NCBI GenBank assembly: GCA_001630475.1
Contig: KV419456.1
Span: 53,403-117,402 of the forward strand
DNA: 64,000 bases
Direction of reading: 5' to 3'
From: Sistotremastrum niveocremeum HHB9708
Lineage: Eukaryota > Basidiomycota > Agaricomycetes > Sistotremastrales > Sistotremastraceae
Numbering within the stretch: position 1 is the stretch's first letter; every line of letters starts with the position of its first letter. Made by a program: the position numbers and the translations under genes. The notes under the pieces are model-generated. The model saw nothing but the letters and a program-made list of their open reading frames with translations. It had not been told where the DNA came from and made no database searches. Of this stretch, positions 4,401 to 58,735 are shown one piece after another.

Positions 4401-4522
4401 CCACTTCGTACGTACGGACGACATCGCTTTCAGTTATTGTCTATGGACTCCCTCCCAACGCCCGTCTACAGTATCGCGATTCTTACCTCGACGTCGACCA
4501 TCGAGCCTTATCCTGCTATACC
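1492..4522. other. No recognisable gene
   Basis: About 3 kb with only short unconvincing open frames on both strands. I see no conserved motif, tRNA, long terminal repeat or inverted repeat. It could hold decayed coding sequence or the 5' regions of the flanking genes. Confidence 0.4.
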
Positions 4523-5804
4523 ATGTCCATACATTCTCAAAATCCAACCGATTCCCACACCGTCTTCCCTGGTGTCCAAGATCTGAGCGACCGGTTGCAA
4601 GAAACAGGGATGGAAATGCTAGTCCCTGTCGCGATGGGCGATTTTGCCAATATATATCGTGTTAAAATGAGGGAACAGCTTGTGGCGATCAAGCAATACA
4701 GACCTACATATTACGGAATGAAGTTACAGTACCTATAGCTATCATCTTCAGCTCATAATGACTGGGGCATTTAAACACAACGCGTCATGCTTCAGAGAAT
4801 AAAGTGAGAGATCGAATTCAGGTCGACAAATCCACATGAGAACATCCTTACAGTGTTGGGTTTTCATGCCGCGGCGGACCAATTACAATCTGAAGAGGGC
4901 ACAAACACAAGATTCTCTATTGTTTCCCCTTGGATGAAAAACGGACGAGTGACAGAGTATATACAAGAAAATCCCCACGTGGAAGTTATCCAGCTTGTAT
5001 TGAGAATATGAGGTTCTTTTTGTCATTAAACATGCACTAAGAATCCCGGCAGGCCATTCACATATGCCAGGGTGCGCAATTTCTTCACGACCAGGGAGTG
5101 ATTCATGGCGACCTAAACCCCGTATGTTAGCCATTCTCTACCAGACTTTGGGCTTAAATTCTAAATTACATCGCAGAGAAACATTCTAGTCAACGATCAC
5201 GGCAAGGCAGTCCTCTCCGGTCTAGGAACCATGAGTTTCGATGAGGCCGAGGCGTCGAATGAACATTCTTTGCCGAAAGGCGGTGTTTACGTCCTCTAAT
5301 ATCTGGCTCCCGAACAGGCCACCGAACAATTTGTTGATCTTGACCAGGGGAATCTTGAGTGTACGGCTAAAGTAGACATATGGGCCATCGGATGTGTCAT
5401 AGCTGTGAGTCACGAAGTCTTCGTCTCATCACCGCCATCTGGAAGTCGTATCAATTTCATGCATTCTCAGGGAGCTGATAACGTCGAGGAAGCCATATGC
5501 TCGTTCTAAGAGAGTGGCTGTCATCATCATGGATTTGATTTCAAGAACGAAGGCTCCTTTTGATGAACGTCTCAAAGAGTTTGCGCCATTCAACGGTTTG
5601 TGGGACGTTTGTGTAAAATGCTGGAGCTTCGAACCCTTGGCTCGACCTGAGTGTCGAGAAGTGAGAGAGTTCATGCAAAAGTTAAGACTTGATTTCAAGA
5701 AATGGTCACGCTACTCATCATTGCATATGGAATTTCAGTTTACCGAGCTCTCTAGTAAGTGTTCTATAACTAATGACTATTATCATAGCAAAACGCAAGG
5801 CTAA
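4523..5804 (+). pseudogene. Protein kinase-like pseudogene (tandem copy 1)
   Basis: Kinase fold signs appear in order across several exons: a glycine-loop-like GDFANIYRV, the VAIK lysine motif, PHENIL, IVSPWMKNG in the hinge, FLHDQGVIHGDLNPRNILV for the catalytic loop, YLAPEQ, VDIWAIGCVIA, and CWSFEPLARPECREV near the end. This is the layout of agaricomycete tyrosine-kinase-like kinases. Two stop codons break the frame: TGA at 4805-4807 just before the third helix, where arginine is expected, and TAA at 5297-5299 immediately before YLAPEQ. In addition the DFG metal-binding motif reads SGLG, so even an intact product would be a poor kinase. ATG 4523 (MSIHSQNP) is the likeliest old start. It lies head to tail with a related copy 3 bp downstream. 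Sequencing error could explain one stop but hardly both plus the lost DFG. Confidence 0.7.
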
Positions 5805-26981: not shown

Positions 26982-29900
26982 CTATCCCTCGATCGGAATC
27001 AAGTAGCTCGCCAAACACCAGCCCACATGTCCCGTCTTCTCATCCCTCGCAAGCAACAAACAATCTTCATCCTCTCCGCCGTTCCCACCTTGCGCAGGCC
27101 TAAGTCCCTCAATCCTCAACCCCAGCGACTCGATCACAACCTCCAGCGGAACATCCTCTTCATCCGTATGCGTAGGCGATCTCGCAAGTTGACTCGGCGA
27201 GCCAAGTTCGCGTATTATCGAGATATGCATCCCTGGAAGAAGTTGGAGGAATGGAAGGTCGAGGTATGTCGCTTCGGATTCTAGAGCTATTGGAGAGGGA
27301 GGAGCGGCGCGGAATGGATTGGTCGAGAGGGAGGAGAGGGATGGCTGTGTGGATGGGAATGAAGTGGGTGAGACGACGATGCAGTTGTAGAGAGCTGGCA
27401 TCGACATATTGGGGTCGTTGTCCCGGGGGGCGGTCGGGGGCGGTTTACCATTCGTGGAGGCGGATGGGTTGAAATTCGGATTGCCGTATGAAGTTGCGGT
27501 GGGTGTAATTCCGTACGACCCTCCTGACGCTGATAAAGTGGTCGTACTCGACGCAGCTGACATCGACGAATTCGGATTGAAAGCTACCGCTGCACGACTT
27601 GGGGGACGGGGAGATACTCCTAGTGAAGGCGTTTTGGAAATGGGTGTGGGAGGTGCGGGTAAAGCTGCCGTAGGCGGTGGATTCGGATTCGGACCAGGGT
27701 TCGTATTCCTCCTCGCTCTGGGATGAGGATTTGGGTGGAGTTGAACATGAAGCTGCGGATGCTGCTGCTGTGCTGGAGGCGTCGGCGAAGGAATAAGAAT
27801 CCGAGGCGTCCCACTCCGACTTTCCCTCCCCAAACCTTCTCGCGAGGGAGAAGAACGATCACTAGTCTGACCTCGCGAAAGACTAGTGCTCCTTCGTAAA
27901 CCCGAAAGACTCCTTCCTAATCCATTCCTCCCTCCTGACGAGGAAGATGAAGAAAGTACGTCCTCTGCTTCTCGGATTTCGGATATACGAGTCGGACTAA
28001 CGCTCGCGGCGGGATAGGTCGCCTGCCTAGCAGATCGGCTTTCTCGTAATTCTTTTAGAAGGCTGGAATCATGAGAGTCGCGGTTCGACGAAGACTTAGA
28101 GTCTTTCGAGTCGCGATTGGACGAGAAGGAAGCTTGCGATCTGGGTGATCTCGGGAACTGCGCATTCGCATTCGTCGAGGAATTGGGAGCAGGCGATCGA
28201 CCTCTCCGAGGACGCTGAGGTTGAGGTTGAGAAGGAGGTTGGGGGAATTGTTGAGCGTATATCTCCCGCTCGACCCTTTCCTGTTCATCAATAACCGCAA
28301 AGAATCGTTCCTCTTCCATCCCTCCATCCATGCCGTTCTCACGCTCACGAGCAAGCCACTGTCCATGTAGATCGGGGGCAGAAGGCGCATGGACCATCGT
28401 TGGACTTTGCATTGCACCCATCGGGAGCGGGAGAGATGCGTGTGCGCGCATTGACGAAGGTGATTTCGGATTTGTGGGAGTTGGGATTTGAGAATGGTAT
28501 GGGTATGGATCTTCGGGTATCGATGCGTATCCGTGTTGATGTTGATGATGGGAAGGATGAGGATGCGGGTGAGGGATGTACATCGCAGTTCCCAGCCCCG
28601 TCACCCCTCCTCCGATACCCGCGGCAACGCCAAGTCCAGGACCGAGTCCGACATCAATCCCCATAGCACGTAACGCCTCCCTCTCGCGTTCCCGTTCCCT
28701 ATCTCTCGTCAAACTCCCACTTCTCCCACTCTTCCCACTATTACTCGATTTCCCACTCGTACTCCTCACACTCATCCTCCTGCCTCCCTCCTTCTCTTTC
28801 CCCCCACTTCCTCCAGATCCAGAACTGAATATCGACGCCGTCCCCGCAGTCGACGTAGCATTGATCCCAGCAACTTGTTCAAGAGAACTAAGCATGCCCA
28901 ACGCATACCTCTCCACTTCCTCGAATCGTTCCCACCACACGCGAACTGTCTCCTCTGCACAATTCGCCCGAATATCAGCGGACGAATGAGACATTCTCTT
29001 CGAATCTCCTTCTCCGTTTCCAGCTGAGGTATCGTCAGCGACGACACCGTCGAATGAAGGCGGCAAAGGCGCCGTTCCTCCGACGCCCAGCGCAAGCCAT
29101 AGTTCTCCCCACCTCCCTCTCACATCCTTGAAGAACTCCGCTTGAACCCTCCTCCATTCTCCAAGAATAGCTCCCATACCTCTCTCAAGCAACGCCACAT
29201 ACTCCGGTAGCTCCCCTCCAAGCGCACCATTCAACGCTACATAATTCTGAGACGCCGCAAGGAGTGTAGCTGGCGGTCTTGATTTAGCTGAGGATGAGAG
29301 AGGGAAGTGGAGTAGTGTTTGATGTGATGCGTGGAGTGTTGATAGGTGGGTTAGGAGGAGGAGGGGAGAGCGAGTTGAGAGGAGGAGGGAGGAGAGGTGT
29401 GGGAGTATTGATGAACGGAGAGTATTTTCGAGATTGGAGAGTGCAGCGGATATATGTATCGTGATGATATCTCGGAAAGCAGTGAGTGCTTCCGATGGAG
29501 GAGTAGAGGCGAGATAGATGACATTCGAGAACGCCTGAGTCCACCGTGCTGGCGCATCGACGAGTGCAGTGCGCAAAGTCACGCTGACGAACTCCAGAGA
29601 TAGTCGAGCGAACGTATCGATGAATAAAGTCGTCTGCTTGATCCTCCTCGCAAGACCCACGATCCGATGTTCCTCAGGCGTCTTCGCAAACGAAAGCGTA
29701 AGACCTAACGTCTCCGCTTTGATCAACGCCGGTAAGGTCGAGAGCAAACCCAACCCCGCTCCAAGCGCAGTAACACTTGCCGAATTCGCAAGTTTCGGAA
29801 GTTTGATGCTCTTCATCCGTCCTTTGTCTTTCTTATCGTCTCCCGAAGGCGAAGCGTTAGAGATATCCCCATCGCTCCCCATCCTCCCCTCAAGAATAGC

Positions 29901-31314
29901 TCTGACAACTTCAACCCTCCTCCGCCCTTCATTAACCCTCCTGGCACACCCCTCCATCATCCCCCTCGCTTCTCTCAATAACTCCAAATCTGGATGATCA
30001 GGATTCAAAGATTCGGTAGCGGCTATAATAGCTGAGAGAAGGAGGGGATATTTGAGAAGACGTTGGATGGGCTTTATGAGGAGTGCGGGGAGGTCCCAGG
30101 CGTTCGTTAGTGGTGACGCGAGGGTTTTCGATTGGGTGAGGTAGTTTTGGATGGAGGGTGTTGGGGAGGTTGTGAGGGATGTGTATTGGGCTAATGCAGC
30201 GGGGTGTCGGGATATGTAAAGATTGAACGGGGGCTCGAGGACGGGAATCTAGTCATACATTATTATTAATATTTAGTTGAAAATATTCGGGACTTACGAC
30301 GTCGAGAAAAAGTTGACCTATAGATCCTTCATCTCCCGTTCCGCCTGGGAGAACAGACCCTAGCGTCTCTTCGATTTTCTCAGAGAAGACTTCTGCGAAC
30401 ATAGCTAGTTGGGTGATATTCCCAAATATAGTGCGCACGTCAGAGGGTGTGAATGGGGCAGATGAGGAGGGTGTTAAGGACGTTCGGGATTGATTGCCGG
30501 CGATGTTCGCTGTAGGGAGGGTTTGGGATGCGGAAAGAGGGAGAGGAGCGGAGAGGGATGAAGCGGTGGATAGTGTTCGTGTCGAGGTAGATGATGATGA
30601 TGGAGGTGTCGGAAGAGCTTGAAAAGGAGGTGGATGGCCTACGCATTCCAGTCAGATCTTCTCAAGAGCTGAGATAATGAACACCGTACCGAGTGCTAAA
30701 GGGAGAAATATATCTCTTATAATAGCCAAATCGGAAGCATACGCTCGTTCAGAGGATAATAATTCCATAAGCGCATGCGTGCGTTTCGTCGGCTGCGCCT
30801 GAGGTAGCAATGGAGCGACATGCTTCGATGCCGACGTCGAAGTTGGTGATGGAGACGGTGGAAGCTGTGGAGAAGGTGGCAAAGAAGGTGAAGGCGATCT
30901 CGAAGTCGGCGGAGTCGTCGAATAAGCATCATATATCGACGTGAAATTCGACGGTGAAAGCGGTGGCTCCATCACTCCATTTCCATTACTAGCACTGGTA
31001 GCAGTACTAATAGACCTCGCCATGGGCCTCAAAGGAGATCTCATTGGTAAAGTAGGCGGCACGACACTGCCGAATGATGAAGTCGTATTCGTCGTCGCAG
31101 TTGAAATTCTAGATGCGGATGATGAGCGTCGATGTTTTTGATATTCTTTAGCAGGAGGTGTCGGTGGACGGATGGGCTGGGATGTTGATGTTGATGTCGT
31201 TGGACTTAAGGGAGGCGGAGGAGAAGAAGGGAGCAAGAAATCAGGAGGAGGGGTCATCAACGCGATGCCCATCCGCCGGTTAGGAGTCGTACGTCCCGAC
31301 ATTGATGAGCTCAT
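26982..31314 (-). CDS. RhoGEF with DH, BAR and SH3 domains (Tuba/DNMBP-like)
   Basis: Exons 30690-31314, 30298-30638 and 26982-30248 (introns 51 and 49 nt) sum to 1411 codons, 1410 residues. A Ser/Pro-rich N-terminus leads into the DH domain. Its first conserved helix is KRTHALMELLSSERAYASDL (about residues 175-195) and its signature helix is LPALLIKPIQRLLKYPLLL (about 375-393). A BAR-like helical region follows (about residues 450-720, including LARRIKQTTLFIDTFARLSL and NYVALNGALGGELPEYVALL). Then comes a long low-complexity Ser/Pro region, and a C-terminal SH3-like module (LLPGMHISIIRE ... HVGWCLASYLIPIEG). Fungal DH-BAR proteins activate Cdc42/Rho at curved membranes to direct polar growth and septation. 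The lack of a PH domain fits the Tuba class. Confidence 0.9.
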
Positions 31315-36562: not shown

Positions 36563-38183
36563 TCACTCGACGCCGTCACTAATTTCAACGTTGCTCACTA
36601 GCTGCACAATGTCATCCCGGAAGGTGGCAGGGACTTGGGATTTGACCTCTTCCGAGCTCAAAATAATTTTAACACTTCCAAACTTTCGCTTCCGGATACG
36701 TCCGAACTTCCAGTCCAAAACCTGGACTAATCTCTGTAAATGCATCGCCACATGGGGGTCAGTGACACTCAGCGTGAACGTGTCTAGACTGTCCCATATT
36801 TGATTCTCCATGGCATGGATATGCGTCAGGAGAGAAAGGATAGGGTATCCTTCGATGCGTAGCTCCTTCACGTTCTTGAACAGATTAATGAGAGCTGAGA
36901 CACTATAAGATCCTTGGCAATTATCCTTTGACACAATTTCAACAGTGGTGCAGTGGTCTAAGCACAGAACTGAAGATAGGTGGTCGAGAATTGGACTATC
37001 ATGACGGCCTGAAATGTCTGGGAACATGTAGCTGTAAGCGATGGGTGGTTTCATGGCGGGGTCCGGAAGGATCTCGGAGTGGTGCATGGAAAATGTGAAT
37101 GGCATGCGGATCGTAAAAGCAGTAGATTGAACGACACTGCGAAGCCAGATTTTGGAGGTCAACAGGGGCATCATTCATCCAACCGTAGGTCTGCGGAGAG
37201 ACGTTCGGGTAAAGAGACGATTTAAAATGTTCATTCCTTGGCAGATCCATGCACGACATGAGATATTCCAGATGGTTTGAAGGCCACCATTCCAATGATA
37301 TTTCCTTCAAAGACTGAGCAATTACCCGTTCCGAACGTCTGGCGAATGTCGCATCAGATCGGCTAGGCGAATAATGCTTGATGTCGACGATGAGCGTCTC
37401 CAATCGAGGCGCCATGGAAATGATCTGGATGACCTCTAAAGAGAAGAACTCGCGTCCATCTTGTGACGCGAAGGTAAATTCCAAATTTGTTAGATCGGTG
37501 AGGTTGGTCCGACTGAGAAGGAATCGTGGGGATATATTTCTCAGCACCACGGCTGTGAGGGGAGACCCATCGCCCAGCATCTGTTCGGGTGTCGTTATGG
37601 GGAAGTCCACACCATAACCAGGACCGATAACTTCGAGATGCAAGTGTTTGAGCCGAGGCGCTGGACGACAAAGGTGGCGACGGCAGAATGTATCCCAAGC
37701 CGATGCAAGGCTCCGGCTTTCTCGGTTGTTGATCAAGGTGATGTTGAGGTTCTCGAGCATTGGAAGTATGTCCTTGGAAGGATATGACTGGTCAATGGCG
37801 TAGAATGGGGAGGATCCGTTTCCTTCTGCCAAATGAATGAGAAAGCGAGGCGGATGCCCTCCGGCTTTTGAAACGAGGTCATTTCGGACAACGCTCGGCC
37901 ATGAGGTGTCCATGAAGTCCCAGATATCGCTACAATCCAGTGCGACTTCTCTCCAAGCCCCGCAACTAGGCATACTCAGACTCCTAAATCATTGAAACGC
38001 GTATAGAAGTTCTTACACGTGTAGTATCCTGTACCAGTGGATCGAGTACCAGGAGTCAGTCCGCGGATTCGCGCGTGCCCCCAGTTCGCGTAAAAGAGTA
38101 GTCTTGATGTCTCCGAAGTAATGTCGTAGTATTTCTCGAAAGACTTCGACGGGTAGTTGGAGGACAAGAGCCTTCAAAGCCAT
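36563..38183 (-). CDS. F-box-like protein (copy F3), apparent frameshift
   Basis: Exon 38017-38183 starts MALKALVLQLPVEVFREILR and ends HWYRILHV. After a 51-nt intron, exon 36563-37965 continues CGAWREVALDCSDIWDFMD. It aligns along its whole length with copy F4 next door (TPEQMLGDGSPL, NISPRFLLSR, ISMAPRLETLIVDIK, LEYLMSCMDLP, LASQCRS). At about 37083-37110 the frame moves by one base: upstream ends near CFYDPHAIHIF and downstream resumes SMHHSEILPDPAMKPPIAYS, where F4 is continuous. Exon lengths sum to 1570, one more than a multiple of three, so a single extra base is the simplest explanation. The C-terminal part (VLDWKFGRIRKRKFGSVKII) is otherwise well kept, so decay is recent or the base is an error. 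Confidence 0.7.
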
Positions 38184-38420
38184 CGGGGTATTTGATGGAC
38201 GGCTTGGGGGCTGGACGCATTGCGGAAGAGAATTAGAGTTCGTCCGAATTCCGATCCGATCGTCGTCGATGGCAACGTCAATACTTTCTTTCTTGGGCAA
38301 CAGACTGTGAGGAAGTCAACTCAGCACTATAATAAACAGCGGATGAATGTCATACAACGACAGAGTCCTGGTCTTCCACTTTCTCGGTACCGATGTAAAC
38401 TACGGCTGACAACATACGAA

Positions 38421-40112
38421 TCATTCGCCATCAGTCGCAACTCGAACACTCATCTCGAGATTCTCCACCAGCTTCTCCAGCTGCTCATAAAAGCCCACAG
38501 GGATGTTCTCTCTAATCTCATCACTCGCACAGATAACATTCACGTCCCCAAACTTCCGCTTCCTAACTCGAGCGAACTTCCAATCCAAAGCATGTACCAA
38601 TCTCATCATCTTCTCCGCAACAAAGATTTGGTCCACAACGAGCGTAAGCGAGGTAATGGTGTCCCATAATCGATTTTGTAGAATATGCGACCGCGTAAAG
38701 AAGTAGACGATTGGATGGCTTTCGATGCGTAGATTTTTGACGGCCGGGAACTGATTGAGAAGAGGCACGACGCTGTGGCTCTCATCACCAAGATCTTCTA
38801 GAGGGGACGATATTTCAAGGGTAGTGCAAGAGGCTGGAAAAAAGAGCGAGGATATGTGATTAAGAGTTTTGTCGTCGCGCCAGGCTGAATCGGTGGCGAA
38901 GACATAGGTGTAAGCGATGGGAGGCTTCACGTTGAGCGCGCTATCTGGAAGGTTCTCGGAATGATAGGCGGAGAGAGACAATCTGCCATGCTTGTAGCAG
39001 CCACGTGCAGAACGACACTGCGAAGCAAGATGCGAGATTTGAGGAGGAGCGACATTCATCCAATTATAAGTCTTTGGAGAGTGACGCGGATGTATGGACG
39101 TCCTGAAATGATGAATAGCGGGCGTGTCAATGGATGACATGAGATATTCCAGGTGATGCGAAGGCCAGAGTTCCAACGACAGCTCCTTCAGATTCGACAT
39201 CGTCAATCTTTCGGAGCGTTCGACGAATGTCATGTCCGATTCAACAGCCCAATCTTGGTAGGTCTTCACGTTAAAGATGACAATTTCGAGCCGATAAGCC
39301 ATGGAGAGAATTTGTAGAACTTCGTAAGAGAAGACCTCGTGTCCATGTTCGGGGGTATAAACCACTTCCAAAAATCTCAGGTTATCCAGTTCGACTCGAC
39401 TCAACAGGAACCGGGGGCTGAAATTCCTCAACACAACACTTTCTAAAGGAGGAGACTCTCCGCCGAACATTTCTTCCGGTGTTGCTAACATAAGTGGGTC
39501 CATGTGGAATCTTGAATCGAGAGCTTCGAGATGGAGATATTGGAGATGAGGCGATGGAGTGAGAAGGTGACCGGCGGAGAATTCGGTCCAGAATTGGGGG
39601 ATATGTTGATTGTAATCGGTTTGAGTGATGATGATTTTCAGACCTCGGAGTGTAGGGAGCGCTTCTTTGCAAGGATATCGTCTTTCGATGGCAGCGAATG
39701 GGGACGATGGGCGAGAGGAGGAGGAAGAGCAGTGATGGTCGTGAATGAGGAAGCTTGGAGAGAACACTTCGCGGTTATTTGATCTCGAGAGGAAGTCGGC
39801 TTGCACGGCAGAAGGCCATGACGTGTCCATCACATCCCAGAGTTCTGGGCAGTCAGACGCGATTTTACGCCAGGATCTACAGCTACACAGAGAGGATAAG
39901 CACTCAACTAACATTCTGATATTAACACAAAGTACTTACACGTGCATTATAGTGTACCACTTACGCAGCCTACTGGCACGAGCAGCAGCGTCATCCTGAC
40001 TCTCTCGGTCCGGCGAAAGGAAATAAGAGGCTTTGATGTCGTCGACATATTGCTTCAGGATGTCTCGGAACAGTTCGACGGGTAGCTTAAGGACAGGAGG
40101 TGCAGCATCCAT
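38421..40112 (-). CDS. F-box-like protein (copy F4), intact
   Basis: Exons 39940-40112 and 38421-39882 (57-nt intron) give 545 codons, 544 residues. The first exon is MDAAPPVLKLPVELFRDILK to MHV. The second begins CRSWRKIASDCPELWDVMDT and carries the leucine-rich tail (TLRGLKIIITQ, HLQYLHLEALD, ESVVLRNFSPRFLLSR, NLKELSLELWPSHHLEYLMS). It ends with the family's conserved block LDWKFARVRKRKFGDVNVI. It is the intact reference for F3, F5 and F6. F-box families of this type are highly expanded and turn over rapidly in Agaricomycetes. An in-frame upstream extension exists, but MDAAPP aligns with the starts of F3 and F6. Confidence 0.83.
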
Positions 40113-40497
40113 CGGAATAGAATAGACCGCGGTGACGATGTGGTTCAGAGCAAAGTGGGTTTCGAACTCCGACCCACTCGGTGAATGTTGGATTGTTATA
40201 TTCGACAATCAAGAGAACAACTAGGCCTATAGGGGTCATTTTGCGTTCAACTTTCAACAAGTGCCAGAGTGTAAAAATATATTTGGCGAACGTATTCATG
40301 TCAAGGCCCTCGCTACCTACACCAGACCTTCGCACTGTAGCCCGGGGGGTATTTCCTGATGAGCTGATGAAAAGGTACGTCACAACCGTTCGGGTGAAAT
40401 ATAGTATCTTCCTCGATGCGTACGAACGACGAACATTGATCATTCCAATCACTACATCACCGTATATCTGCATCTCAATTTGACTATTGATAGACAC
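40113..40497. other. Intergenic, no gene seen
   Basis: About 385 bp between F4 and the F5 fragment; short frames only. Confidence 0.4.
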
Positions 40498-40770
40498 CTA
40501 TGAACAACGAAAGAGACATGTGTTCATTCGGTCCCGACCCTGATCTCGACATTGCTCAATGCTCACTACCTTCGTTATCTCTTCATGGAAGTTGGGAGGA
40601 ATCTTTGACCTGAGCTCATCGGTCCTGCAAATGATGGTGAGACTCCCAAACTTCTGGTTCCTGATCCGTCCAAACTTCCAACCCAACGTAAACACCATGT
40701 TCTGGAAATCCGCGGGATCCTGAACTTCTGTAACGATGAGAATTATTGACTTGAGACTATCCCATGTCGA
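40498..40770 (-). pseudogene. C-terminal fragment of an F-box-like gene (F5)
   Basis: Encodes WDSLKSIILIVTEVQDP through GWKFGRIRNQKFGSLTIICR to the stop at 40498. It is clearly homologous to the last 70-80 residues of F3 and F4 (WDSLDTFTLSVTDPH; LDWKFGRIRKRKFGSVKII). Homology stops abruptly at about 40770, where a different, plus-strand coding sequence begins. This is the truncated tail of a third tandem copy, with the rest deleted or replaced. Confidence 0.7.
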
Positions 40771-41323
40771 TAAGACTGTTGCAGCTCAGGTCAAAGCCTT
40801 TGAGAAATATTCTACTCATGCAAAACCCAACAACACCGTTCTGCATCGTCTCGGAAGCAACTCCAAACGCAGCAGTTTGAAAGCCAACAAAGCCATGGAA
40901 CGCAAAGAAGCCAATGCAGCAGTAGTACGACTAGAAGAGCAGCTCGCAGGCACGCAACAGGAGAAAGCTGCTGCACAGCAAAAGCAAAAAGATCTTCAGC
41001 AGGCCGAAAAGAATCTCAAGAGTCAGATTGGAGACCTGCCAAAGAAGGCAAAAGGGAAGGGAAGAGAGAAAGGAAAGGTTTTGATTGACTTGGTCACCGA
41101 CGAGGATGTAGCTGAAAGGGAAGTTTTGAACGTTGATGACGACACTGAAGCTGCAGCCCCCCCTCCTCTCTATCTCGACCCAGCGTCATCATCCAACCGC
41201 AACCTACTTCCCGACTTCCTAAACCTCGAACCGTTGGGCGAGTTACCCGCGGGTTTTCAGCCCGACCTCTCGCAATCCGAGTTCGACGAGTTGTTTGGAT
41301 CGTGGGGACCATGTCTGGATTAA
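40736..41323 (+). CDS. Coiled-coil acidic protein, 5' and 3' altered
   Basis: 195 residues from ATG 40736. The first 11 or so residues are read from the antisense of the F5 fragment. Unrelated sequence begins around 40770 (SHVDKTVAAQVKAFEKYST), so the original 5' end is probably missing. A Gln/Ala/Lys-rich coiled coil (about residues 58-102, NAAVVRLEEQLAGTQQEK) is followed by a basic patch (KKAKGKGREKGK) and an acidic, Pro-rich tail with FDELFGSWGPCLD. The TAA stop at 41321-41323 belongs to a transposon inserted after the last codon. The sequence beyond the transposon continues the same frame for seven codons to another stop, so the tail is clipped. Family unrecognised; it could derive from a transposon-borne gene. 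Confidence 0.5.
   Translation: MRIIDLRLSHVDKTVAAQVKAFEKYSTHAKPNNTVLHRLGSNSKRSSLKANKAMERKEANAAVVRLEEQLAGTQQEKAAAQQKQKDLQQAEKNLKSQIGDLPKKAKGKGREKGKVLIDLVTDEDVAEREVLNVDDDTEAAAPPPLYLDPASSSNRNLLPDFLNLEPLGELPAGFQPDLSQSEFDELFGSWGPCLD
41313..41320 (+). repeat. Left target-site duplication GTCTGGAT
   Basis: Exact 8-bp copy of 41972-41979. It encodes the last residues (C)LD of the interrupted frame. Confidence 0.85.
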
Positions 41324-41971
41324 GGCTCCACTGTATCCATATATATATGGTATATATAGGGGGTATATATATGATATACAGTGTATAATATACAAGCTTC
41401 CTGGTATATGTATAGTATATGTATAGTATATGGTATACAGTTGTCATATAATAAAAGGGTGAAGCAGGGGTTAAGGTGACATTGTCCCATGAGATTTCTG
41501 TTTTCAAGTGTTTAAAACACCACCAAAGGACTCAAATAATTTTAATCATTATTTATATTAATAAATTGCGGATTATTCTCATTCAGGGGGTGGTCAAACA
41601 CTTTATAGATAACTGGGAGTAGTGTGAGAGGTTGCCTCACAAGTACAACAGTGTTTGGACAATGATTATCACTTTCAGGTAGTCAAAATCAAAGCACAAT
41701 TGATAATAACCATGTGGAGAACACCCAGAATAAAGTTTAAATAAGGAAATTAATCAGATATACACAGCCAGGTATGTAGGCTACAGTAGGCAGATGATTC
41801 CAGTAGTACCACAGTGTTAGGAATACTCCTGTAGTATTGTAATGCTCTTAGTAATTTATTAAGTCAAATATACAGTATATACAGTATATATATGGATATA
41901 TATATGTTATATACCCTATACTGTATCAAATACAAAAATTTGTATATGGATACGGATACAGTGGAGCCCTA
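41321..41971. mobile_element. hAT-like MITE (651 bp) with 8-bp target duplication
   Basis: Inverted ends TAAGGCTCCACTGTATCC (41321-41338) and, read inward from 41971, TAGGGCTCCACTGTATCC; 17 of 18 match. They are flanked by identical 8-bp copies GTCTGGAT at 41313-41320 and 41972-41979. An 8-bp duplication with T at position 2 and A at position 7 is the hAT hallmark. The interior is A/T-rich with TATATA runs and has no coding capacity. It sits inside the end of a coding sequence and provides that gene's stop codon. Confidence 0.85.
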
Positions 41972-41979
41972 GTCTGGAT
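41972..41979 (+). repeat. Right target-site duplication GTCTGGAT
   Basis: Exact 8-bp copy of 41313-41320. It is followed by in-frame GCT GAT GCT CCC ATG TAC ACT TTG TAA, the displaced original gene end. Confidence 0.85.
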
Positions 41980-43040
41980 GCTGATGCTCCCATGTACACT
42001 TTGTAAAGTATCAATATGGTGTATCCCCTAGTGTCTTAGTAGCGTATATTGCTTTCTGTCACATCGCTTTATTGATATAAATGTATTTGCCAAACTATCC
42101 ATCTCTATCTCCGAGACCTCCGAGACGCGAGTATACTCGTTCCGGTGCTGATATAAGTTTGGCTGTGACTCAAGTGAGAGTCGATAGCTACGGAGTGAGA
42201 CTCGTTACGAAGTGAGAGTGAGACTCAATCTCACTCCGAGATTGTCAGTGAGAGTCGCCCGGCCCGAATCTCACTCATACCTCTTTCGTTCATCCTCACT
42301 TGGGACGCGACGATCGAGGAGGAGATCTAGATGGGGTTCATCCGGATTCCGTCGCTGACGCATTCGGCAATCCCGAACGGATAGGATCATCCGAGATCAC
42401 CGAGTCTCGTGGACATTCTTCAAGCTCAGCCTCAAGCAAGGCCTCAAGTCTATACCTTGGTCTATACATCAAGTATTCTGCCATTAGTAGGCCCATTACT
42501 GTTATACTTTACGATCTCGACGGGTACGGATACTATATAAAGGAACGAAGGTAGTTATTGCATGACCTCCGCACAGTGAATCATCATAATTTCATAAAAT
42601 GCTTGCATAAATGTCGCCATCGGGTTGAAGTCTGGATCGCATGGATGAGCAAGATAATCCGGGATGCTTTCCTCGTAGGCTATATTCATTCGGAAGAAGC
42701 AGAAGAGGGTGTCTCTGAAGCATAATTAGTATCATGGATGGTGAAATCAACCGAGAGAAAAGCACCTTCGGATGGAGAATTGATACTAGTAATTGTAAGA
42801 CACCAAGAATCAGAGACGGAAATTATTGTATGATGAAAAGTCTAAGACAAGGCGAATGAGGGGACATTCATCGGATCGTGCGTAAGCAAGACGCATGTCT
42901 CCCATGTTTCAGAAAGAGCGTGATCAAGAGAGTCGGGACACTTTGACTCAATATCTGTCAATTGCGGCGCGAGAATAAAACTGATCCAGATCGGAAGGAA
43001 TCTCTCAAGAATCTGTTGGGAATCTTCCGGGTCCAAAAAT
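41980..43040. other. Gene-free spacer with GTGAG repeats
   Basis: About 1.06 kb without a recognisable gene. At 42160-42280 the word GTGAGA/GTGAGT and its complement CTCAC recur many times in both orientations (GAGTGAGACTC type), giving a locally self-complementary block. A TATATAAAGG lies at about 42534. Confidence 0.45.
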
Positions 43041-55207: not shown

Positions 55208-56690
55208 ATGAACGTTAACGTGGTATTTCCTGTCCTTGATCTTCCTGGGACTATTCCGCGGGTATCCTGCACGAATATTTCGCGTCCATCAAAGCCAATT
55301 ACTTCCTGCCAGCGAGGCAGAGACCGAACGCGCTCTGGCATGCAGGTGGGCTGCGTGATTGGTATAGGATTATGCACGTGTAAGACCTCGAGCTTGAATC
55401 AACTAGATGGTGATTGATTTCTTGTGTCTACAGCTGCAGAACTTGGAGAACACTAGCGTCCGAGTTCATGGAAATTTGGGAGTTCATGGATCCAACATGG
55501 CCTCTCGAAGCTCAACAAGGCTTCCTCTCCATCTCCAAAGCGGGTGGTCCCGATTTTAACCCACGCTTCCTCATCCATTTCCCAGAAGACGACGGTGACG
55601 GCTTCGGAACACCCCCCTCTCCATCCCCATTCATCGCACTCGACGAAATATATCCTTGCAAAGACGCGCTTCTTACCCTCGAAGGCCTCAAGATTCACAT
55701 CGTACCCGCAAACGACGATCAACGTGTACCAGACGCGTGGGATACTTTCCGCTCTTGTCACCTATCCAGTCAAGCTCGCCATCTCAAACTTCTCCACCTC
55801 GAGCTTTTCGATCCTAGAACTTACATGTATCGAGAATTTCCGACGTCGTCCACACCCGAACAAAACAGATGTTGAACGAATCTCCTTTCGAAAGCGTGGT
55901 ACTGAGGAATATATTAATATCTCCCCAATTCCTCCTCGGTCGACTCGAACTCGCAATTTGAAATATCTCAAAGTCTCCTACAGTCTACAGACCAGGACAA
56001 CAAGTGCAATTCTTTTCATTCAAAGTTCTCCCAATTCTTTCCATCGCGCCCCAAATCGAGACCCTCATCTTCAATGTTAACTCGTATCGTTATTGGGTCC
56101 CACGATCCGTCACATTCGTTAAGCGCCCGCACGACTCACAGTAGTGCATCTAAAGAAACTCTCTTTGGAAAAGTGGCCGGGGAAGCATCTGTAATATCTC
56201 CTGTCGTCCATCGATCTGCCGAGCATCCAACATTTCAGCACTTCCACCAATCCACATCATTCTCCGAGGAACTTCGACTGGATGAAAGATGCTCCTTCTG
56301 AAATACTATCTCTCGCTGCGCAATGTCGTTCGGCCCGGTGTCGGTGTGACGTTGACTCCTTTCATGTTTCCGCCTATCACTCCGAGCGCCTTTCACCCCT
56401 CACTCTCAGCACGAAACCATCCATCACTTACAGCGACGCCTTTCAAGGAAACAGTTCAGGCGAAATTGACAGCGCGCCTCTCAATTATTTATCCTCAATC
56501 CTGTTCCTCGACTCCTGCATCGCCCTCGAAAGACAGTCCAATGGGTCACAGCGTTGTATCCCTCATCAATCTCTTCAAACACGTCAAGTTTCTCCGTCTC
56601 GAGACTCCATATCATTTGCCCAGAAATAAACGGCAAGTCGTCATTAATTCTTTGGCGGCCAATTCCAGTGAGAGAAATATTACGTAAGCC
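55208..56690 (+). pseudogene. F-box-like pseudogene (F6)
   Basis: Same plan as F3/F4: an exon 55208-55379 starting MNVNVVFPVLDLPG, an intron, then CRTWRTLASEFMEIWEFMDP from 55433. The frame is broken several times. Exon 1 shifts by one base near 55260 (the family sequence resumes as ILHEYFASIKANYFL), another shift lies near 55855-55870 (resuming ESPFESVVLRN), and further shifts or stops fall between 55950 and 56290. Recognisable blocks continue (LSLAAQCRSARC, FHVSAYHSERLSPLTL) to about 56690. It is a whole-length, heavily decayed copy separated by 15 kb from the F2-F5 cluster. Confidence 0.8.
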
Positions 56691-56869: not shown

Positions 56870-58735
56870 TTAAGATAGCCTAACCAAAACCTCCGCCGCC
56901 TCATTTATCTTCGCCTCATGCTCAGCCAAATATGCCCTAGTCTTATTCCGTATATTACTGAGCTTCCACCAATGCCCCAAAGCCACGCCCTCAAGTCCTT
57001 TCTTCACATTAAACCGGAAATAATTAAACTCGCCTGGATCATGCAAGTTCTTGAACGACTCATGAGCCTTCTCCGTATCCGTGGCAATTTTGCAAAGAAT
57101 GACGTTAATGCCTAGGTAAGATGATATCAAAGGGAGACTGAGCAGATGATACCACCTTAGTTTCACCCGGTCTTCTCCTCCTGCACCGAGACTTATAAAG
57201 CAGATCTCGTGGGGTAGATGGGTTGCGGAGTGATCAGGATCTTGATCATCCGTTCTCGAAGCTTCTTGGATGAGCTTACGTCGTTCTCCAAGGAGCTGAA
57301 AAGCAGGGTTGTTATAGTTTAGACCACCATCGAGGAATTTGAATTCTTTCTCGGGAGTCCGGATCGTCATCGGTTTGAAATAACCGGGAGCGGCCGAAGT
57401 CGCCCTAGCGGCCTGCCAGACCTGGCAGTTAGCAGGAGGGTGAACTTCAGGTTCGCGTTCGCTGGGTGTCCCGTCTTCAAGAGGAGGACGTTGAGGGACA
57501 GCATGGGATTCTTTGAGAAACGTTTGAGTTTGATCATCCTCCTCGCTTAGTCTGTAGTAAGGATGTTATGTGGGTATACCAGCGGGTAATGGGTACCTGA
57601 AATATTCTCAAAACCTTGACCCTGACCCATTGGGTATTCCACTTCAGGTACCTGATACCCACAGGTATACCAGACGGGTATTGGGTAACCCACAGGTGAT
57701 TGGTACCCAGGTATTTCACAGGTACCTGCAAAGGTACCCGGGTATTCTAAAGGTACATACAATAGGACCAATATAAAATAACCATAAAAATGTCTTGGAG
57801 TGCTCAGAGTCTTCTTTATCATCACTGCCTTGCACTCTGTCTTCATTGAACTCTTCATCTGGGTCACTAACAAGATGGTCTGTCTGGAGCCTTGGCCAAT
57901 CCTATGAGCCAATCACCTGTGCCGGGTACCCGAGGTCTCCAGGTGCTTGACCCATACCCATTGGGTAATTGGCTTGGGTTACCCGTGATGACGGGTACCT
58001 TGGCATCTCGGGTACCCACAGCGGGTACCCAGGTACCCAAAACCCACGTAACATCCTTAGTCTGTAGTTCCGAAAAAGATGTAAAGGAAAGTTGACGTCC
58101 AAAGTCTTGTCATGTATAACGGTGCACACAAAACTATTCATAAAAATCAACGTGAGGACCCCGAAACATGCAAAAAAACATGATTGAGATCAACTTCTTA
58201 CGTGTAAGGACGCCCTTGGCCCGACACAACTTCTGGATCATGGAGCATGACGTCGGCCTTTTGATGGTTTTGAGTTATTGTGCTTTTTATCATCTTTTCC
58301 AGTTCTTCGGAATCATGGAGTGCTTTCTGTTTCAAGAACCGCAAGACCGATTTATCAAAAACGGCCTTTCCCAGATTTTCATAGACCTTCAGCGCGTCTG
58401 CTACAGACATTTTGAGAGGTCCGAGCATCAAGGCTATGATTCTGTAGACAGTTCGTTAGTGGCTAAGTCGTGACGGCACAAACATCACACACCCTCCAGT
58501 GCTTGTTCCTCCGATGACATCGAAATACGAGCAAGGGAGAGGCGTGGTTTCCATTCCTTTTTGCTCCTTAATCCTCTCCATTATAGCCTCTAGCATCAAT
58601 AGTTCCGAATAGCCTCGGATACCTCCGCCGTCTAGAGTGAATCAAATATCAAAACGGCGAAAAATACGTAGAAGGGCTGGAAGAAATACCTAAGGACAAC
58701 ATCCGGAGGGGCAATTTTGGTTTATGTTCGGACAT
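56870..58735 (-). pseudogene. Patatin-like phospholipase gene interrupted by a MITE
   Basis: Exons 58690-58735, 58493-58631, 58202-58441, then a last exon from 58133 that is split by a 502-bp insertion plus one duplicated octamer, and resumes at 57549-56870. Without the insertion the exons total 393 codons. Motifs: MLSLDGGGIRGY (oxyanion loop), the nucleophile elbow GGTSTGG, VWQAARATSAAPGYFKP, and FLDGGLNYNNP, where the Asp completes the Ser-Asp dyad. The family cleaves fatty acids from membrane or storage lipids. All sequence outside the insertion is in one open frame, so the insertion is the only lesion. Translation entering it reaches a stop at 57902-57904, about 85 residues further and before the catalytic Asp. 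Unless the insert is spliced out, the enzyme should be dead. Confidence 0.88.
57558..58059. mobile_element. hAT-like MITE (502 bp) inside the patatin-like gene
   Basis: Inverted ends TAAGGATGTTATGTGGGT (left) and TAAGGATGTTACGTGGGT (right, read inward), 17 of 18 identical. They are flanked by the exact 8-bp duplication GTCTGTAG at 57550-57557 and 58060-58067. The interior is rich in GGTACC/GGGTACC and GGTATACC words in both orientations, which makes it strongly self-complementary. No coding capacity. The eight-base duplication with T2 and A7 and the TAAGG terminus match the MITE at 41.3 kb, although the rest of the sequence differs. Confidence 0.88.

Follow-up and report, generated by a model that had tools for sequence, protein, structure and literature searches.

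Probable recent insertion of a hAT-type MITE whose terminus supplies the stop codon of a coding-like frame in Sistotremastrum niveocremeum

According to the accessible part of its description, the mushroom Marasmius oreades harbors the non-autonomous hAT families MarorhAT-4, -11 and -12, which are 597-631 bp long, are active in the laboratory and are thought to be mobilised by a longer hAT of 3,396 bp (PMC9674265). These families are the closest described parallel to the MITE analysed here, which also belongs to a mushroom, is short and has no transposase. The likeness drawn here is one of description; the Marasmius families differ in having an identified source element and in having been seen to move (PMC9674265).

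Three other systems, taken from the accessible parts of the respective reports, concern what such insertions do to genes. In potato, a C-terminal truncation made by a transposon (StCDF1.3) has a phenotype; its maturity effect and excision footprints are documented, in text that names no superfamily for the transposon (PMC12420743). Exon 4 of Xenopus dm-W stems from hAT-10, so that there, as here, non-coding hAT DNA forms the end of a coding sequence. In dm-W, however, the hAT-derived DNA has come to code for 71 residues following two point mutations, whereas the MITE gives a stop only (PMC9250109). For maize Ds1 of the Ac-Ds system (hAT), exonization was simulated with intronic insertions in plant genes, in contrast to the insertions described below, which enter open frames and bear TAA at one end and TAG at the other (PMC5432752). 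The accessible text of PMC12595863 contains no mention of "stop codon", and that of PMC6416283 no match to "stop". Within the searches made, we found no report of the present element and no general survey that tallies how often hAT ends serve as stop codons.

That a terminus acts as a stop follows in the ordinary way from hAT-type ends and has been described before. The locus is a sound, replicated instance and not a new mechanism, and knowledge of hAT elements is unchanged by it. What it provides is one genome in which, at both ends of one family, the terminal letters set the outcome of a coding insertion.

The element and its copies

The window, i.e. the whole stretch of 64,000 nucleotides that was analysed, lies within contig C63 of the genome searched (34.7 Mb, 111 contigs). 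Its tandem F-box-type genes, frames with gaps resembling introns and numerous hAT transposons point to a basidiomycete. It contains an insertion with the following parts:

41313..41320, no strand: left 8-bp target-site duplication, GTCTGGAT
41321..41971, plus strand: hAT-type MITE, 651 bp, 32.6% G+C, with 4 differences from its sister copy C7 over 641 aligned positions
41321..41338, plus strand: left terminal inverted repeat, TAAGGCTCCACTGTATCC
41954..41971, minus strand: terminal inverted repeat of the right end, TAGGGCTCCACTGTATCC when read inward
41972..41979, no strand: right 8-bp target-site duplication, GTCTGGAT

The non-coding insert is read directly from the sequence. Its two duplications are identical, and the inverted repeats are alike at 17 of 18 positions, the sole mismatch being base 3 (TAA versus TAG). 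By a simple count, about 4e-6 such pairs of duplications and inverted repeats are expected by chance in 64 kb. No transposase was found inside the element, and the six-frame translation of the window copy is broken, with 70 codons as the longest open stretch.

Seven copies, a lower bound, were found in the genome: C63 (the window copy, C63w), C7, C10, C20, C23, C25 and C83. All seven have perfect 8-bp duplications, with a different sequence at each site. The 651-bp element with 18-bp inverted ends and exact duplications, as described in the sequence-only reading, is thus borne out, and the match of inverted ends and duplications, which that reading wanted to see in other genomic copies, recurs in the copies found. 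In every copy the left end is TAA and the right end, read inward, is TAG; the 18-bp ends are constant save one substitution in C10. Five copies are 643-652 bp long. The other two, C7 (907 bp) and C10 (1166 bp), carry nested inserts in cores of 641 and 642 bp. CACCATAG borders the nested insert of C10 on both sides; that of C7 (locus L053, element at 4468-5374, host frame of 547 codons) comprises ~266 bp and has inverted ends starting with CTGTACCTACA.

Private to the window copy are 1 substitution and a 10-bp duplication. The sister pairs C63w/C7 and C23/C25 show 4 differences each, over 641 and 645 aligned positions, respectively, whereas the remaining pairs are 90-95% identical. The near-identity within these two pairs indicates that the insertions are recent; judging from the aligned copies, the family has been active recently and over some time.

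Like other MITEs the element is short, AT-rich and devoid of coding capacity. Its copy number is not high (at least 7 in 34.7 Mb), but MITE families of more modest number are mentioned in the accessible part of one report, 24 copies in its case (PMC3942097). Four of the seven copies count as lying in or near genes: C63, C7 and C23 each sit in an open frame of at least 200 codons, and C25 in a gene recognised by Pfam. At C10, C20 and C83 no open frame of at least 40 codons enters the element (for C20, 532 bases were examined on one side).

The interrupted host frame

We consider it very probable that a hAT-type MITE recently inserted at a codon boundary of a coding-like frame and that its terminus supplies the stop. 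The features of the host frame and its surroundings are:

40543..40764, minus strand: F-box-type gene of a tandem array, 3' remnant, overlapping the first ~10 codons of the host ORF in antisense
40736..41323, plus strand: host frame, 195 aa and TAA, coding-like codon usage, no recognised family
41321..41323, plus strand: TAA, identical with element bases 1-3 and with the stop of the host frame, phase 0
41980..42006, plus strand: stretch through which the host frame would run on in the empty site, with ADAPMYTL and then TAA

The 195-aa product of the ORF has the C-terminal residues GPCLD, directly followed by the first three bases of the element. When the flanks are joined and one duplication is removed (reconstructed empty site GTCTGGATGCTGATG), the frame reads on through ADAPMYTL to the TAA at 42004-42006. 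The sequence-only reading had claimed that the element terminus acts as the stop codon. This holds in conceptual translation, and the opposite terminus does likewise in a cytochrome P450 gene (see below). It was also right that the same frame resumes beyond the element and runs to a TAA, but eight residues are lost, not seven. The eight-codon tail alone is no evidence of a natural end, since any random frame ends somewhere.

Codon usage argues for a coding frame, which is presumably translated. The codon score of 0.068 exceeds all of 2000 order-1 resamples and is inside the range of the eleven training ORFs (leave-one-out -0.03 to 0.086), these being ORFs of the window picked by length, not proven genes; one of them, 26982-30008, scores under two of its own off-frames. 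The 195 codons stay open in 1 of 2000 resamples. Neither a paralog in the genome nor an above-cut-off family match was found for the ORF, and no relatives in viral contigs were confirmed. Weak matches at E 0.07 (44% over a lysine-rich stretch) and E 0.10, to ATG16 (16.5 bits, cut-off 33.7) and Piwi (14.3 bits, cut-off 28.9) and to PDB chains (best mL100, E 2e-5) were rejected as low-complexity or coiled-coil matches.

The 5' side is less regular. The F-box-type remnant was detected by tblastn with the copy at 36563-37174 (42% over 74 aa, E 2.5e-15). Its homology ends at 40764, whereas two longer tandem copies, at about 36563-38300 and 38421-40208, continue. The F-box name was given by eye and from an F-box-like Pfam match of a neighboring copy below the cut-off (13.2 bits, cut-off 24.3). 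As the first ~10 codons of the host ORF are antisense to this remnant, the ORF may be 5'-truncated or chimeric. The ORF, treated as a gene in the sequence-only reading, is hence a putative gene: the frame is coding-like, but its start overlaps the antisense remnant, and neither a paralog nor a family above cut-off was found.

A possible interpretation, to which we give somewhat less than an even chance, is that the MITE entered a dead gene fragment. The ORF would then be a 3' exon, and one and the same rearrangement would have severed it from the 5' part of its gene and shortened the F-box-type neighbor; the stop would be inconsequential. This would explain why the minus-strand homology overlaps the ORF start at 40736 and stops at 40764, and it agrees with no paralog having been found and with residue 54 being the only other Met of the ORF. 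Against it stand the 195 codons without an internal stop and a positive codon score in each of the four segments from 40787 on, although another frame is higher in one of them. By eye, GTTGCAG near 40783 makes a plausible splice acceptor, so that a first exon could lie elsewhere, and in compact genomes gene starts do overlap their neighbors.

At 55261-56603 on the plus strand lies a degenerate 5' part that, together with the F-box-type 3' remnant at 40543-40764 on the minus strand, resembles two complementary halves of one gene, possibly split by an inversion of ~15.8 kb; this is unproven. An inversion of this kind predicted the missing 5' part of the host ORF on the minus strand right of 56603. 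There we found a patatin-like gene instead (named by eye from its GGGIRG motif), which ends with its own stop at 56870, and the prediction was rejected. The patatin-like gene (minus, about 58600-56870) is itself split by a stretch rich in GGTACC/GGGTACCTG repeats at window positions 57530-58060 (by eye).

Outcomes of insertion and the 3' end

Returning to the reading of a recent codon-boundary insertion, a non-autonomous hAT-type element would have transposed into the coding-like frame at a codon boundary and duplicated its 8-bp target. The distance to the stop was computed for all seven copies in both orientations and three phases. It is 0 codons in phase 0; in the non-zero phases the stop comes after 15, 18, 22 or 35 codons, and after 54 in one phase of C7, which carries a nested insert. 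Since both family ends are TAA/TAG, codon-boundary insertion in either orientation means an immediate stop without element-encoded residues. Under the proposed mechanism the stop would thus directly follow the duplicated target in one phase, and the other two would append a short foreign tail of 15-35 codons (54 in the one C7 case). The expectation of one third clean truncations is countable across fungal pangenomes.

The C25 copy (L056 4529-5173; genome C25:411528-412172) provides the second phase 0 case. It lies in reverse orientation within a cytochrome P450 gene; after ...DPETITFGFG the P450 frame runs into the TAG of the element end and stops there. The empty site goes on with RR and then, by eye, with an intron and ICPGRH; as the insertion precedes these, the haem-cysteine part is cut off. 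Of three peptides compared with Pfam, two from the interrupted gene reach 46.2 and 27.8 bits (cut-off 22.8), and the third, from beyond the insertion, stays below this cut-off with 13.5 bits.

C7 is inserted in phase 1 of a 547-codon frame, where 22 codons are added before the stop, and C23 in phase 2 of a 238-codon frame, where 35 are added. The codon scores of these two frames are weak (0.010 and -0.009, respectively), and neither has an above-cut-off Pfam match. Phase 0 is thus found in two of four coding-like insertions (C63w and C25) where one third is expected; the phase looks random, the observed proportion being compatible with, and not clearly above, one third. Shorter frames that enter the element were not counted as genes. 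These are 57 codons at C63w (phase 1), 81 at C23 in reverse (phase 0), and 74 (phase 1) and 127 (phase 2) at C7 in reverse.

The element carries three AATAAA motifs:

41450..41455, plus strand: AATAAA arising from the single substitution that is private to the window copy; AATAAG in the six others
41560..41565, plus strand: AATAAA, shared in position by all seven copies
41729..41734, plus strand: third AATAAA

The expected number is 0.71, and 78 of 2000 resamples reach 3. In the 651 bp past the second duplication no AATAAA was found. The mRNA may end at these motifs, and the 3' untranslated region and poly(A) signal may have been replaced, as the sequence-only reading proposed, although fungal 3' ends are not strictly AATAAA-dependent. 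Only 9 of 1953 possible single substitutions create a new AATAAA; nevertheless, the motif at 41450 is merely suggestive of a 3' end provided by the element, because it is one event, noticed afterwards.

The same motifs permit a different outcome: the TAA would still terminate translation, but with an mRNA that is unstable or has its end at another place, the allele would be null and not cleanly truncated. An insert as rich in AT as this one (32.6% G+C) and with its three AATAAA can alter 3'-end formation. However, the new stop lies just eight codons ahead of the empty-site stop, and a large change of the mRNA is not required; we regard a null allele as rather unlikely. Less likely still, and in our view improbable, is a fully functional outcome in which the inverted ends of the family form a two-way stop (TAA/TAG) and the window element may supply both the stop and the mRNA 3' end of a functional shortened gene, after the private AATAAA mutation 129 bases from the stop. 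If the ends do work in this way, insertions at codon boundaries would shorten proteins cleanly at the C terminus and add no foreign residues.

Just downstream of the host frame, at window positions 42130-42280, there are GTGAGACTC/GAGTCTCAC repeats (by eye), which are partly inverted.

Assignment to the hAT superfamily

The inverted repeats of hAT elements begin C/T-A-A/G-N-G. In its accessible part, one report gives TIRs of 10-25 bp and 8-bp duplications for hAT elements (PMC3942097). The present family agrees with this description in all seven copies, which have perfect 8-bp duplications and 18-bp ends starting TAAGG.../TAGGG.... The same genome contains 23 matches to PF05699. One of them (22.3 bits, cut-off 21.4) is part of a complete resident hAT of 4,453 bp (L052 1231-5683) with the target-site duplication ACAGTCAT and the ends TAAGGCATCCAACG and TAAGGCCTCCAACG, which are similar but not identical to the 18-bp ends of the MITE.

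A search of the genome for the end patterns and a scan of hAT neighborhoods found no autonomous element with the ends of the MITE. With the 18-mer end and up to 2 mismatches there were 14 sites, all within the seven copies (reversed-pattern control, 2); with the 12-mer there was one additional site, unpaired (control, 8). The scan covered 34 loci (L028-L061), a part of the genome, with a pattern requiring C or T at base 1, A at base 2 and G at base 5, base 3 being free. It yielded 15 end pairs versus 0 in a control with the right arm uncomplemented. By our own reading these represent 13 distinct elements, 5 of them from the MITE family. Every pair starts TAA or TAG at both ends.

The hAT label is hence based on the ends, the duplication size and the resident hATs, not on a source element. 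With a complete hAT of comparable ends in the genome, the earlier call of a hAT-like MITE is supported, and the copies were probably moved by a hAT transposase. That the MITE comes from another superfamily with 8-bp duplications (e.g. P, Merlin, Zisupton-type), several of which exist, would be compatible with its lack of a transposase and with the source element not having been found, but it is very improbable given the TAAGGC ends and 8-bp duplication of the resident hAT and several further elements with 8-bp duplications and TAAGG, TAGAG or TAGTG ends in the scanned loci.

A match of the 18-bp end in two viral contigs was taken as chance, as only 18-19 bases are common; by their ORFs, these contigs are phage-like (by eye). 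A hAT transposase gene lies in several pieces on the minus strand of L059 from about 1496 on, and the C20 copy (L059 533-1175) is situated ~320 bp past its 3' end. Two elements in the scanned loci have TAAGG ends and perfect 8-bp duplications, one of 748 bp (L034 301-1048, duplication TAAGGGTGAGCTCG) and one of 631 bp (L057 2957-3587, duplication TAAGGTTGCCCACG). Five hAT-like elements of ~506-516 bp (L054 4517-5032; L056 2709-3214, 7027-7535 and 8467-8972; L039 143-648) have TAGAGTT/TAGTGTT-type ends and 8-bp duplications and probably constitute one further family, a member of which sits nested within the C10 MITE.
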